Positions 2,893-12,027 of a stretch of 12,317 bases of DNA are shown here, one piece after another. The stretch is from Cryomorphaceae bacterium (GTDB lineage Bacteria > Bacteroidota > Bacteroidia > Flavobacteriales_G > Salibacteraceae), in contig PXEK01000078.1 of the NCBI GenBank assembly GCA_003564735.1, positions 1 to 12,317 on the forward strand, given 5' to 3'. A program made the position numbers and the translations under genes. Every line of letters starts with the position of its first letter. Position 1 is the stretch's first letter. The notes beneath the pieces are model-generated. The model was not told the origin of the DNA, searched no databases, and was given only the letters and a program-made list of their open reading frames with translations.

Positions 2893-3186
2893 ATGATTCT
2901 AGAAGTTCTCACCCCGCAAAAGTTGTTGTATCGCGGTCATGTAAGTCACGTAAGAATGCCCGGTATCGGTGGTTCTTTCGGTGTTTTGCCCAATCACGCA
3001 CCCCTGATTTCTGCTTTGAAAAGAGGTGCCGTTGAGGTAACTCAAAACGATGCCGAAAACAAGACTTACGGCGAATATGACGGAACTCTGCTCGAAGACG
3101 ATGCCTCAAACACAACGTTTAGCTTCATGCTCAACGGTGGTGTGGTTGAAGTACAAAAAGACAAGGTGATTATTTTGGCAGAGTAA
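2893..3186 (+). CDS. atpC: ATP synthase F1 subunit epsilon (short form)
   Basis: Epsilon subunit of the F1 central stalk, which couples rotor rotation to catalysis and can inhibit ATP hydrolysis. The 97 residues hold the N-terminal beta-sandwich: the start ILEVLTPQKLLYRG, the signature GSFGVLPNHAPLISALKRG (about 27-45) and the closing strand GGVVEVQKDKVIIL. The C-terminal two-helix hairpin found in the roughly 139-residue E. coli protein is missing, so inhibition through that hairpin is unlikely; short epsilons are common in Bacteroidota. An acidic loop (YGEYDGTLLEDDASN) sits where other epsilons have a shorter turn. It lies 23 nt after atpD, with no strong ribosome-binding site, and is followed by a terminator 26 nt later. 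Confidence 0.95.
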   Translation: MILEVLTPQKLLYRGHVSHVRMPGIGGSFGVLPNHAPLISALKRGAVEVTQNDAENKTYGEYDGTLLEDDASNTTFSFMLNGGVVEVQKDKVIILAE

Positions 3187-3277: not shown

Positions 3278-4045
3278 CTACGAAGCACCGGCAGCTTTAT
3301 CATACTTTTTCAATCGGGCGGTGCGGACGTCAAATTCCAAAAACGTAAAATCGGTAATCCAGTCGCCGGTATTGAAATAAACGCTGTTTTCACCCACCTC
3401 CAATTCCAAAGGCAAATGGCGGTGCCCAAAGACAAAATAGTCGTAATGTTTTTTTTGCAGTTTTCGCTTGCAGTATTGGAGCAGCCACTCGTTTTCGGGG
3501 CCGTTAAACGTTTTGTCGTTGTTGCCTGTTGACGCTCGACTGCGCCTCGAAAAGAAATCGGCCAGACCTATTCCCACACTCGGATGTAAAAACCCAAAAA
3601 GACGCTGACAAACCTTATAGCGAAATACTTTTTTGATGATTTTGTAACCGCGATCGCCGGGGCCAAGTCCGTCACCGTGACCAATGAGAAACGTTTTGCC
3701 GTTCAATTTTCGCTCAATGGGGTTGCGGTGCACTTTTACCCCCGTTTCTTTGGGCAGGTAGTCAAAGACCCACATATCGTGATTGCCGGTAAAAAAGTGG
3801 ATGGGAATGCCCGCATCGGTGAGTTGAGCCAATTTGCCCAAAACCCTTACAAAGCCCCGCGGTACGGCTTTTTTGTATTCAAACCAAAAGTCGAATAAAT
3901 CGCCCAGTAAGTATATTTCCTCGGCATCTTTTGATACCTCATCAAGCCATTGTACAAAAAGTTTTTCTCGCTGTAAGCTCGACGCGTATTCGGGAGCACC
4001 TAAGTGTTGGTCTGATGCGAAATATACCTTTTTGGCTGTTTCCAT
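3278..4045 (-). CDS. lpxH: UDP-2,3-diacylglucosamine hydrolase-like metallophosphoesterase
   Basis: Calcineurin-like phosphoesterase of the LpxH group, expected to cleave UDP-2,3-diacylglucosamine to lipid X and UMP in lipid A synthesis at the inner membrane. All metal-binding motifs are present in order: SDQHLG (Asp12, His14), GDLFDFW (Asp49), GNHD (88-90), GHGDG (His123) and FGHRH (His208, His210). Length from the chosen start is 255 residues, normal for Bacteroidota homologues. The frame is open upstream to an ATG at 4120, but that lies deep inside queD; ATG 4045 starts 1 nt after the queD stop and places the SDxHLG strand about ten residues in, as usual. ATG at 4060 is an alternative. Last gene of the minus-strand operon; no convincing terminator follows it. 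Substrate assignment is by family resemblance. Confidence 0.9.
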   Translation of the reverse strand: METAKKVYFASDQHLGAPEYASSLQREKLFVQWLDEVSKDAEEIYLLGDLFDFWFEYKKAVPRGFVRVLGKLAQLTDAGIPIHFFTGNHDMWVFDYLPKETGVKVHRNPIERKLNGKTFLIGHGDGLGPGDRGYKIIKKVFRYKVCQRLFGFLHPSVGIGLADFFSRRSRASTGNNDKTFNGPENEWLLQYCKRKLQKKHYDYFVFGHRHLPLELEVGENSVYFNTGDWITDFTFLEFDVRTARLKKYDKAAGAS

Positions 4046-4046
4046 T

Positions 4047-4499
4047 TTAACTGTTGTCATCCGCAAACCATTCGGCATACGATGTTTTGGTTTCGCGCAA
4101 TCGGGCACTGTGCAGTTCAATTCCCTCGTGCTTTTCGAGCTCTTTTAAAATGATTTCCACAAAATCAATGAGCATGTTTTCACAGGTGGGTTGGTATGTT
4201 TTGAGGATGAGTCTTTCGTTGAGGGTGTTGTCCACAACGGGCAAAAAGCGAGAATCGTCTCTCAACACCAATGCGTGGTCATAAACATTTACGATATTCT
4301 TTTTTACGATGGCCTTTATATCGCTAAAATCAATAACCATCCCGTCTTTTGGCATGCTTGGCGCATGTATGGGCTTGCCGATAAAGGTAACCGACAAGCT
4401 GTATGTGTGGCCGTGAATGTTGTGGCACTTACCGTCGTGGCCGTCCGGTGCGTGCGCCATTTCCCAATCAAACTCCTTTGTAACTCTAACCGTATTCAT
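4047..4499 (-). CDS. queD: 6-carboxy-5,6,7,8-tetrahydropterin synthase / 6-pyruvoyltetrahydropterin synthase family
   Basis: QueD-type enzyme that turns 7,8-dihydroneopterin triphosphate into 6-carboxytetrahydropterin, an early step towards the queuosine and 7-deazaguanine bases of tRNA. Seen: zinc ligands His16 (EMAHA), His29 and His31 (HNIHGHTY), the catalytic Cys25 just before them (GKCHN), the YDHALVLRDD segment carrying the Asp-His pair, and the C-terminal ARLRETKTSYAEW motif with the pterin-anchoring Glu. At 150 residues it is slightly longer than the shortest QueD proteins. Its ATG (4499) lies 1 nt after the stop of map, and its stop lies 1 nt before lpxH, which points to co-translation within one transcript. 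No other queuosine gene is in the window, so the QueD role rather than a biopterin role is inferred from the Cys-containing motif and the bacterial setting. Confidence 0.93.
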   Translation of the reverse strand: MNTVRVTKEFDWEMAHAPDGHDGKCHNIHGHTYSLSVTFIGKPIHAPSMPKDGMVIDFSDIKAIVKKNIVNVYDHALVLRDDSRFLPVVDNTLNERLILKTYQPTCENMLIDFVEIILKELEKHEGIELHSARLRETKTSYAEWFADDNS

Positions 4500-4500
4500 T

Positions 4501-5286
4501 CTATCCGTTTCCTTTTTTGTTCAAAGCCTCATCCACATATTTAAAAGTAGAAAGTATATCAGGCTTACCGTCAACAATAGCTACATCGTGTTCAAAATAT
4601 GCTGAGGGTTTACCGTCCAAAGTTTCTATCATCCACCCGTCGTCGAGTTGTTTTACGCGGTGCGTTCCCAAGTTAATCATAGGTTCGATGGCCAAAACGA
4701 GCCCCTAGCGCAGTTGTTTTCCGCGGCCGCGCTTTCCCACGTTGGGCACTTGGGGTTCTTCGTGCATTTTCCTGCCCGGGCCGTGCCCCACCAACTCGCG
4801 CACTACGCCGCAGCCCTCGCTTTCGCATCGGTTCTGAACGGCATAACCTATATCACCTAATCGGTTACCCGTGCGGCATTGTTCAATTCCTTTGTACAAC
4901 GAATCTAAGGTTACATCCAGCAGTTTTTGTACCTTGGGATCAATATTGCCAATTGCAAATGTGTAGGCGTGGTCACCGTAAAAACCCTCGAGTTTGGCAC
5001 CGCAATCGATGGATACTATATCACCCTCTTTGAAGGGGACGTCATCGGGAATGCCGTGAACCACCTGTTGGTTTTTGGAAATGCACAAGGTGTTGGGGAA
5101 ATCGTACAGACCCAAAAATCCGGGCTCGGCATTTTGAGACCGAATGTAATCCTCAGCCATAGCGTCGAGTTCCGGCCCCGTAACACCCGGGCCTATTTTC
5201 TCGGCAATGAGCCCCAACGTTCGAGACACCACTTGCGCGGCATTGCGCATCAACTCAATTTCATCACGCGTTTTGTATATAATCAT
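4501..5286 (-). pseudogene. map: Methionine aminopeptidase type I, interrupted by an in-frame amber codon
   Basis: Type I methionine aminopeptidase removes the initiator Met from new proteins. Read through, the gene gives 261 codons, the normal length, in a single frame. The five metal ligands are visible: Asp94 (SIDCGA), Asp105 (GDHAYTF), His168 (VGHGPGR), Glu201 (AIEPM) and Glu232 (YFEHD); His77 and His175 match the substrate-binding histidines. Codon 194 is TAG (4705-4707 on the plus strand reads CTA), in the segment KQLR-stop-GLVLAIEP where relatives have K/R-E-G-L; one G-to-T change from GAG explains it. Ending at 194 would remove Glu201 and Glu232 and give an inactive protein. TAG terminates several other genes here, so the codon is not reassigned. 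Sequencing error, a true null allele with a second map gene elsewhere, or readthrough are all possible. Its ATG overlaps the upstream stop (ATGA at 5283-5286). Confidence 0.93.
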
Positions 5287-5705
5287 CTTCTCTTATGAAA
5301 TATGGAAAAAATCCCGCCTTTGCGCTCTTCTTTATTTTTGTGCGGATTTTCATCGCCTTCAATCATTTGGTGTACTTCACCCCACCCGGGAAAACCGCCC
5401 AAGTTGCGATCGTCAATAAAAATACCGGCATTTATTTTTCGGCTCGCGCCGTCCAAATCGTCCGGCTCCTCGGGATAACTTTTATTTACGGCGTAAAACT
5501 CTATGCCGTTTTGCTTACAAAACGCCACTGCCTCTTCCAGCGCTCTGCCGTGGCGATACGTCCACAAAATTAATTTGTGGTTTTTATCCTGTAGCATTTT
5601 GAGCGTTTCAAACGCAAACATCATCGGCTTACCTATGTCGGGATAGGCGTCTCGCACAATGGTGCCGTCAAAATCTACGGCTATGGTGAGCTGATTTTCA
5701 AACAT
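5283..5705 (-). CDS. HAD-superfamily hydrolase, BT0820-like
   Basis: Small single-domain haloacid dehalogenase-type phosphatase of unknown substrate, resembling the BT0820-type proteins of Bacteroidota. Motif I is VDFDGTIV, with nucleophile Asp11 and acid/base Asp13; motif II is the ILWT strand with Thr49; motif III is probably Lys90 (SRKIN); motif IV is FIDDRNLGG with Asp98 and Asp99. The core ends near residue 115 and is followed by a charged lysine-rich tail. There is no room for a large cap domain, so substrates could be small or macromolecular. It is the first gene of the four-gene minus-strand operon and its stop overlaps the start of map in ATGA. A perfect TAnnTTTG box sits only 4 nt before the ATG, so the message is probably leaderless. 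Confidence 0.87.
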   Translation of the reverse strand: MFENQLTIAVDFDGTIVRDAYPDIGKPMMFAFETLKMLQDKNHKLILWTYRHGRALEEAVAFCKQNGIEFYAVNKSYPEEPDDLDGASRKINAGIFIDDRNLGGFPGWGEVHQMIEGDENPHKNKEERKGGIFSIFHKRR

Positions 5706-6928: not shown

Positions 6929-7894
6929 TCAATCTAACTCCTTAGGCTTCTTTTTCTGTAAATAAAGTTTATCTCCCGGCTTGGGCTGCTTGCCTTTCGG
7001 AATTCGATTTTTTCGGCGCAATGAGCCGTACTTAATCGCGTGCTCTTGTGAAATATCCCATAAATCCTCTCCCTCCTTCACAATGTGGTATTTTTCGTCG
7101 CCCTTGTAACGTTTGGGTGTCAAATATATACGTTCACCTTCTTCAAATACATAATCCTCTTCAACATCGTTGTAACTTTTAATTTGCCAGCGGCCCATTT
7201 CCATGAGCATCGCCACATCATCAACAGTTTGTTTTTCCTGTGCATTAATGTATTTCACCTTATTAGATGTTCGTTTTACAGCCGGTTTATTACTCAGCAC
7301 CACCTCATCAAACTCTGTTTCTTCATCTTGGTCAGAGCCCTGTTTCCTTTGCTTTTTCTTCGATTTTTTATCCGTCACGCCTCCGGCCAAAACTTCTTCA
7401 TCTATTTTGTATAACTCGTTATCCTCGATAATTTTAATCAGCAGCTGCGGATAACGTGGATTGGTGGCGTACCCCGCCTCACGCAAACCCTTAGCCCAAC
7501 CTTTGTAATCGTCAATATCCAATTCAAAAAGCTTGGAATACCTAGGGCGTTGTAAAAATTTAGCGTGATCGGCATAAGAGTCGTAAACATCTTTATACAC
7601 TCTGAAACACTCTTGGTGAGCATCATCATCATGATATGTTTTTTTACCTTTCCAAGAGCTGTGGCACTTAATACCAAAATGATTATTGGATCGCTTTGCC
7701 AAGTCGCTGTTGCCGTTTGAGCTTTCCAGCAGGGCTTGAGCCAGCGTAATACTCGCGGGAATTTTAAACTCCCGCATACTCTTCACGGCCGTTTCTTTAT
7801 ACTTTTCAATGTACTCCTCTCGCGTGAGATTTTGAGCGTTCATCGCGAAAGCTAAAAACAACGTGAGCGCGGTTATGTAAAGCTTTTTATTCAT
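6929..7894 (-). CDS. Secreted N-acetylglucosaminidase (GH73 type) with C-terminal LysM
   Basis: Predicted peptidoglycan hydrolase acting in the periplasm or at the cell surface. The start at 7894 gives a clean signal peptide (MNKKLYITALTLFLAFAMNA, probable cut at about residue 21); the upstream ATG at 7921 would add nine residues before it and overlap the promoter box. The glucosaminidase domain spans about 24-165, with probable catalytic Glu57 in ALLESSNGNSDLA, followed by NNHFGIKC and the closing GYATNPRYPQLLIKII. A charged linker (about 170-215, rich in Lys, Glu and Asp) leads to a degenerate LysM-like segment (about 217-262) and a clear LysM (about 268-315, YHIVKEGEDLWDIS) that binds peptidoglycan. 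This layout is usual for Bacteroidota homologues. It lies downstream of the PLP enzyme gene, 149 nt away, with its own promoter box. Confidence 0.92.
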   Translation of the reverse strand: MNKKLYITALTLFLAFAMNAQNLTREEYIEKYKETAVKSMREFKIPASITLAQALLESSNGNSDLAKRSNNHFGIKCHSSWKGKKTYHDDDAHQECFRVYKDVYDSYADHAKFLQRPRYSKLFELDIDDYKGWAKGLREAGYATNPRYPQLLIKIIEDNELYKIDEEVLAGGVTDKKSKKKQRKQGSDQDEETEFDEVVLSNKPAVKRTSNKVKYINAQEKQTVDDVAMLMEMGRWQIKSYNDVEEDYVFEEGERIYLTPKRYKGDEKYHIVKEGEDLWDISQEHAIKYGSLRRKNRIPKGKQPKPGDKLYLQKKKPKELD

Positions 7895-7910
7895 TTCTTT
7901 TCTAATCACA

Positions 7911-7918
7911 CAAAAATA
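7911..7918 (-). promoter_or_regulatory. -7 promoter element of the glucosaminidase gene
   Basis: On the minus strand TATTTTTG matches TAnnTTTG exactly, 16 nt before the ATG at 7894, predicting a leader of about 10 nt. No TTG at the usual -33 spacing was found. Confidence 0.5.
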
Positions 7919-8043
7919 CAATTTAGAGCGGTTCCGTTTCTTACACCCCTCACTTTTTCAAACATTCTTATGTTAGTAGCCGGGCGCAGTTCCGGTTAGC
8001 GTTACCTTTTCGAAATTCTAAGTCTTTTATCGCTAGAAACGCT

Positions 8044-11223: not shown

Positions 11224-12027
11224 TTAAGATTTACCCAATTCCGTAGCGCGGTCAAAAGCGGCTTGTGCCGCTTTTTTAATAAGCTCTTTTACGTTGCTGT
11301 CGTCCATAGAATCGAGGGCAGCGCGTGTGGTGCCTCCCTTTGAAGCTACTCGTTCCATCCAATCTTCGGGTGAGATATCGGCGTTTTTGAAAACGGCCAC
11401 TGCCCCGTCAAAAGTGTGAGTGACCAAAACCCGGGCATCGTTCATGGAAAAGCCCATGTCTAAAGCCGCCTCCAACATACTTTGCATAAAGTAAAAAACG
11501 TAGGCAGGTCCGCTGCCCGATATCCCCGTGCTGGCGTTAATAAAATTCTCATTTTCAACATGAATAGCTTCGCCGGTAGTGTCGAGTAAATTACGAATCA
11601 TCAACCGTTCAACCCTTGAAACCGCATCGGTTTCGGTGTATGAAGTCACACCCTTTCCCACTTGAGCGGGGAGGTTGGGCATAGTGCGCACTATTTTTTT
11701 GGCGCCCGTTCCTGCCTGAATAGTTTCCAGCGTAACCCCTGCCATGAGAGAAACCAAAATTTGTTCATCATGAATAAACGGCTTCATCTCGGCAAACAGC
11801 TGCTCGGCGTGGTACGGTTTTACGGCAAGAAAAATTACATCGGCAATTTTTACACCGTCTTCCAACTTTTCAAAGACGTCAAAATGCGGTTGATCACGCA
11901 GTGCATCGCGTTTATCTTGTGAAATATCGTGAATCATTAAATTTCGGCGATCTAATACCGGTGCTTGCGCCATTCCTTCAGCGTAAGTAAGCCCCATATT
12001 TCCCGCTCCAATCATCAATACTTTCAT
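11224..12027 (-). CDS. proC: Pyrroline-5-carboxylate reductase
   Basis: Last enzyme of proline synthesis: reduces 1-pyrroline-5-carboxylate to proline with NAD(P)H in the cytoplasm. Seen: N-terminal Rossmann motif IGAGNMG (6-12), AVKPYH (68-73), RTMPNLPAQVGKG (114-126), the substrate-binding stretch STGISGSGPAYVFYFMQ (166-182) and the C-terminal signature ASKGGTTRAALDSM (228-241). At 267 residues it has the family's normal length and no disruption. ATG at 12027 places the GxGNMG loop correctly. The upstream minus-strand gene ends 113 nt before it; no good TAnnTTTG box was found in that gap, so it may be read from an upstream promoter or a weak one of its own. Confidence 0.97.
   Translation of the reverse strand: MKVLMIGAGNMGLTYAEGMAQAPVLDRRNLMIHDISQDKRDALRDQPHFDVFEKLEDGVKIADVIFLAVKPYHAEQLFAEMKPFIHDEQILVSLMAGVTLETIQAGTGAKKIVRTMPNLPAQVGKGVTSYTETDAVSRVERLMIRNLLDTTGEAIHVENENFINASTGISGSGPAYVFYFMQSMLEAALDMGFSMNDARVLVTHTFDGAVAVFKNADISPEDWMERVASKGGTTRAALDSMDDSNVKELIKKAAQAAFDRATELGKS

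Follow-up and report, generated by a model that had tools for sequence, protein, structure and literature searches.

Two bodies of work bear most closely on the locus described here. The accessible text of a study of Bacillus subtilis reports that map, encoding methionine aminopeptidase, is essential in that organism and that yflG is not (PMC1266368). As far as the available portion of a survey of bacterial pseudogenes goes, many such genes stem from failed horizontal transfer (PMC522871).

The stretch of DNA analysed here (the window, 12,317 nt) is the entire contig C44 of its own draft bin, G000, which comprises 2.29 Mb in 406 contigs and is 83.34% complete with 0.86% stated contamination. 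On the minus strand at 4501..5286, the ORF list, the translation and a match to TIGR00500 identify a type I methionine aminopeptidase frame of 261 codons, codon 194 of which is a stop. A preliminary description of this DNA had noted an amber codon at 4702..4710 within a frame otherwise encoding a full-length type I enzyme, and both observations hold. The TAG, read off the sequence, occupies 4705-4707 (the plus strand reads CTA), and when X is put at the stop, residues 3-246 of the translation align with positions 2-245 of the 247 in the TIGR00500 model at 283.9 bits, for a cut-off of 171.35. The window map also aligns with the solved bacterial methionine aminopeptidases 1o0x (residues 1-246) and 4fo7 (residues 3-245). 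The TAG leaves an upstream ORF of 193 aa (4705-5286) and an in-frame ORF of 64 aa on its 3' side, which begins with TTG (4501..4695, minus strand) and is an entry in the ORF list whose use would be hypothetical.

The metal ligands, which we take from the E. coli enzyme to be D94, D105, H168, E201 and E232 in the window map, are divided by the stop. Counted on the translation, D94, D105 and H168 lie upstream of it and E201 and E232 downstream; the positions of the two glutamates beyond the stop had been given correctly before. Since E201 and E232 are beyond the TAG, the 193-residue product should be inactive, to judge from its sequence. As assembled, the window map has neither an uninterrupted frame nor all five ligands in its translated product, and the TAG at codon 194 is a disabling change in frame such as a pseudogene would have.

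Alignment with relatives, one of the checks proposed in the preliminary description, bears out the oddity of the stop. In 37 of 40 relatives searched, the stretch with map matches query residues 1-193 at no less than 39% identity with no stop inside the match, and all 37 have open frames of at least 258 aa. From two others, G002 and G028, came no more than weak M24-family matches to these residues, at 28%, and G017 gave no match. Glu had been called usual at codon 194; it is indeed common there, but it is not the commonest residue, the 110 homologues having D 62 times, E 28, N 12, K 3, R 2 and three others. The nearest relatives have E (the second map on contig C391, discussed below, and genomes G001 and G009) or N (G020). 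Among the best 80 of 423 matches in a scan of genome contigs, the best named record for map residues 1-193, with 70% identity, comes from an uncultured Flavobacteriales bin, and none of these 80 exceeds 70% identity to the window map, records of near-identical genomes possibly having been excluded. A literature search returned nothing relevant to a nonsense allele of map among the matches listed.

The preliminary description was incomplete in treating the stop as the sole oddity: four unprecedented residues accompany it within 216 bp, and the operon has neighbors that are new with respect to the relatives checked. The residues C159, P170, M219 and Y230 of the window map are absent from all 110 homologues, which have Y (104) or F (6) at 159, L (88), V (17), I (3) or F (2) at 170, T (105) or S (5) at 219, and H in every case at 230. 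Together with the stop they occupy 4597..4812 on the minus strand, and the radical changes fall in the latter half of the gene. The 110 homologues probably count one contig twice (L117, from G020:C52, and L035, both 14,809 bases); a separate comparison with 107 of 109 loci plus C391 (two loci being dropped as identical or by a length and motif filter) agrees. When only low-entropy map columns are considered, never-seen residues number 4 of 112 in the window (8 D, 159 C, 219 M and 230 Y, with P170, in a looser column, and the stop left uncounted), 0 of 91 in C391, 0 of 112 in both G001 and G009, and 2 of 112 in G020. The window's 4/112 against 0/315 for C391, G001 and G009 combined gives p 0.005, with a comparison set chosen afterwards, and some more distant relatives match or exceed the window's rate (L013 has 5/112; per 1000 columns, the median of the others is 9.0 and their maximum 63.1, versus 35.7 for the window).

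Elsewhere on the contig, hutU has 3 never-seen residues in 386 columns, versus 3 in 387 for its counterpart in G002, in a comparison covering 29 of the 38 relatives in which hutU was matched; the hutU of this contig looks normal by this measure, and neither hutU nor atpD has any radical lineage-specific change. As a possible gauge of draft faults, in-frame stops in relatives yielded no usable rate: the hutU matches of G025, G026 and G027 are listed with one stop each, and that of G026 (L185) aligned over residues 1-659 without a stop. We did not use proC as a control because just 5 of 8 loci passed the 35% filter. This gene (window 11224-12027) is 94% identical to that of G002 and at most 62% identical to those of other relatives, with matches in 14 of 41 genomes, its own included.

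The window map belongs to a conserved operon in the order HAD-map-queD-lpxH, an arrangement shared by relatives including G001, G009 and G020. Upstream of map is a gene for a BT0820-type HAD phosphatase (5283..5705, minus strand), assigned on 189.5 bits against a cut-off of 165 and on the conserved order. Downstream are a queD-like gene of the 6-pyruvoyl tetrahydropterin synthase/QueD family (4047..4499, minus strand; 78.4 and 75.1 bits) and, as last member, an lpxH-like gene (3278..4120, minus strand; 90.3 and 82.8 bits), both below curated cut-offs and named for their best matches. We saw no other frame break in the window operon. The neighbors of map do have unusual residues of their own: queD has L18P (4446-4448) at a position that is L in 11 of 11 orthologues, lpxH has N168Y and G265V in columns that are each invariant in 11 of 11 orthologues, and the HAD protein has G at 94 versus D in 72 of 72 and D at 82 versus F or Y in 71 of 72 (window 5424-5426 and 5460-5462). 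Never-seen residues in queD and lpxH number 0 and 1 in C391, 2 and 3 in G002, and 2 and 4 in the window, which puts the two window genes on a par with their G002 counterparts.

What surrounds the operon differs from one genome to another. In the window, lpxH is convergent with atpC (2893..3186, plus strand, identified from the ORF list and the neighborhoods in relatives), whereas in the congener G002 it is convergent with a phoD-like gene, as it is in C391; in G001, lpxH and atpC are both beside other genes. As far as these few genomes tell, C391 has the congener's gene order and the window has another. The lpxH contig of G002 begins inside queD, which puts its map out of view, and its atpD contig ends inside atpC, which likewise hides the lpxH-side neighbor of atpC. 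On the muramidase contig of G002, no match to the HAD gene or to hyp5910 was found up to the contig end.

The preliminary description had reasoned that a real nonsense allele implies a second map gene or readthrough, and had proposed a search for another map. An M24-family search of the bin found three places, the window map, C391 and C109. The second map is on C391, a contig of 3,211 bases with lpxH, queD and a map truncated by the contig end, in the same map-queD-lpxH order as the window; readthrough, the other alternative named, found no support (see below). This map scores 250.5 bits against TIGR00500, its codon 194 specifies Glu, and DNA identity between window 3328-5125 and C391 is 80%. 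A candidate for the intact copy that would be sought beside a pseudogene is present in the same bin, in the form of a gene that is itself incomplete at the contig boundary. There the final 31 bases of C391 (L004:3181-3211) fall outside its match to the window and to relatives, and this may be a chimeric contig end. Contig G002:C197 breaks in queD and G000:C391 in map, which would suit a locus that resists assembly. The third place, C109, was rejected as a second map: its best NCBIfam match is Xaa-Pro aminopeptidase at 164.3 bits (below the cut-off of 465), and it scores only 30.9 bits with the type I methionine aminopeptidase model, in a scan that used a 200-aa piece. In none of the 40 relatives was a second map above 34% identity found.

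On the reading preferred below, C391 and C44 would come from one cell. A low stated contamination of 0.86%, and the finding of one close match each in the bin for atpD, hutU and proC, make a stray contig with exactly this gene unlikely, although the argument is a rough one. Following the next genes of G002 gave no link from C391 to the rest of the bin, the 232-aa neighbor there having no match in G000 or G001, and lepA having none that is close in G000.

To compare rates, we counted replacement and silent changes by branch with G001 and G009 as outgroups. The window branch has 8/9 in map (the stop being among the 8), 5/5 in queD and 9/9 in lpxH, and the C391 branch has 2/5, 3/11 and 3/10, respectively. 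For the three genes together, 22/23 in the window versus 8/26 in C391 gives p 0.034, and the same 22/23 versus 12/62 in the window's own atpD and hutU gives p 0.0003, with genes that differ in constraint. Neither map alone (8/9 versus 2/5 in C391, p 0.65) nor queD plus lpxH (13/14 versus 13/21 in G002, p 0.60) differs significantly, and none of these p values is corrected for the number of tests. Over shared codons, identity in lpxH is 78.7% for window and C391, 75.6% for window and G002, and 79.0% for C391 and G002; in queD the values are 77.0, 73.5 and 83.6%. The three lineages are about equally far apart, which fits an old extra copy and three species alike. In all 6 genes compared outside the operon, GC3 is lower in the window than in G002, whereas lpxH and queD, the two comparable genes inside it, have the higher GC3 in the window, a weak hint that the operon may differ in origin from its flanks, whether by transfer or by chimeric assembly. 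In C391, GC3 relative to G002 is lower in lpxH and higher in queD and phoD (2 of 3 genes), and because this picture is mixed, composition does not mark C391 as native.

The reading we prefer, to which we give an even chance, is that the window operon is an extra or displaced copy with a dead map, and that C391 holds the working copy. The HAD-map-queD-lpxH block next to atpC would then be an extra or displaced copy of the conserved operon, which was duplicated long ago or was acquired from a sister species. Its map would be a young pseudogene, in which the TAG deprives the product of two of the five metal ligands and further conserved positions may have begun to drift, and methionine removal would be carried out by the C391 map, in the gene order of the congener G002. 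Under this reading the base call of the TAG is presumably correct and this copy of map presumably dispensable. Decay needs a second map, and one was found, which favors it over a combination of artefact and contamination. Also in its favor are the gene orders, the never-seen residues, the operon rate (p 0.034) and the GC3 of lpxH and queD. Set against it are the hypothetical linkage of C391, its length of just 3.2 kb and its mixed GC3, the absence of a further frame break in the operon, the never-seen residues of some distant relatives, the clustering of the odd residues, the tests that are not significant, a GC-rich palindrome by the stop, the lack of any second map above 34% in the 40 relatives, and distances like those between separate species.

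We considered the possibility that the cell has an intact map at this locus, that poor coverage or a mixture of strains gave rise to the TAG, and perhaps to some of the odd residues, in the consensus, and that C391 belongs to a sister species and was misbinned. We put this somewhat under an even chance. The bin is a draft of 406 contigs and 83% completeness, composite bins are a known problem, according to the part of PMC6550520 available, and map is normally essential, as it is in B. subtilis, where yflG is not (PMC1266368, accessible text). The odd map residues are confined to the 216 bp, with one in queD at 4446-4448, and a 10-base palindrome, CGCGGCCGCG (4722..4731, on neither strand in particular), is 14 bases away from the stop codon in what could be a miscall context. 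Such a GC-rich palindrome could promote miscalls; the available text of PMC3622629 links Illumina miscalls to inverted repeats and GGC, and it finds GGC to be no reliable predictor of such sites. However, a consensus with five wrong bases in 216 bp would be exceptionally error-prone, the odd bases come without a frameshift, hutU and atpD on the same contig are free of comparable changes, and a low-contamination bin is unlikely to contain, by chance, a stray copy of exactly map.

A more elaborate account is possible but rather doubtful, namely that there are two map-queD-lpxH operons of different ancestry, the atpC-side map being lost while the copy in the congener's order takes over.

Very improbable, in our view, is a real TAG that is read through or suppressed to give the full-length enzyme. 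Read with X at the stop, the frame runs on to a normal C-terminus and clears the type I cut-off by a wide margin, and the gene for release factor 1 (prfA) was not recovered in the bin, where the sole match to the prfA model is prfB. A missing prfA is, however, to be expected at 83% completeness, and lepA is likewise without a close match in G000 (the best, at 51%, is another GTPase); an incomplete genome can explain both absences. The preliminary description argued against codon reassignment from the use of TAG at the end of at least five other genes. Its conclusion stands and its count does not: TAG does serve as a normal stop, terminating 5 of the 13 ORFs taken as window genes (CDS1, lpxH, map, hyp5910 and hutU), but only four of these are besides map, the muramidase-like exported protein (6929-7921) ending in TGA. 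The suppressor tRNA that it suggested looking for did not appear, as no CUA anticodon is present among 18 tRNAs identified by ARAGORN (of 20 tRNA matches, the weaker L143 and L144 being uncalled), which is weak evidence because the search of this incomplete genome turned up no tRNA at all for several amino acids. Readthrough would also leave the four other changed residues at conserved positions of the window map, and recoding or a new genetic code seems unlikely from the sequence. Still less credible is a split enzyme assembled from the 193-aa part and the 64-aa part restarted at the TTG at 4693-4695, for although the in-frame ORF is there, with AGGGG 6 bases before its TTG, that motif is contributed by codons 194 and 195 of the original frame, Bacteroidota rarely use Shine-Dalgarno sites, and the second part is itself altered at residues 219 and 230.

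The explanation is an ordinary one: either a spare copy is decaying or the draft genome is at fault. If the decay is real, the locus would be a clean example of redundancy allowing a copy of an essential gene to die, and a nonsense codon in a draft genome could signal a second copy. If it is an artefact, a stop in an essential gene together with a second copy in the bin would help to flag an assembly as mixed or faulty.

Compared with the type I methionine aminopeptidases (TIGR00500, Pfam PF00557), the window map is a near full-length match above the cut-off, with X at the stop, and shares the HAD-map-queD-lpxH neighborhood with members of the family; it differs in the stop at codon 194 and in the four residues without precedent in 110 homologues. 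Like the bacterial pseudogenes of PMC522871, as characterized in the accessible text, it is a disabled gene copy whose intact relative stands in a different gene order, but it shows one disabling change alone and an artefact is still a rival. In the B. subtilis pair, as described in the available part of PMC1266368, both products are active enzymes, whereas here one copy has a stop and the placement of both in one cell is presumed; what the two cases would have in common is a pair of map genes, one of which is dispensable.
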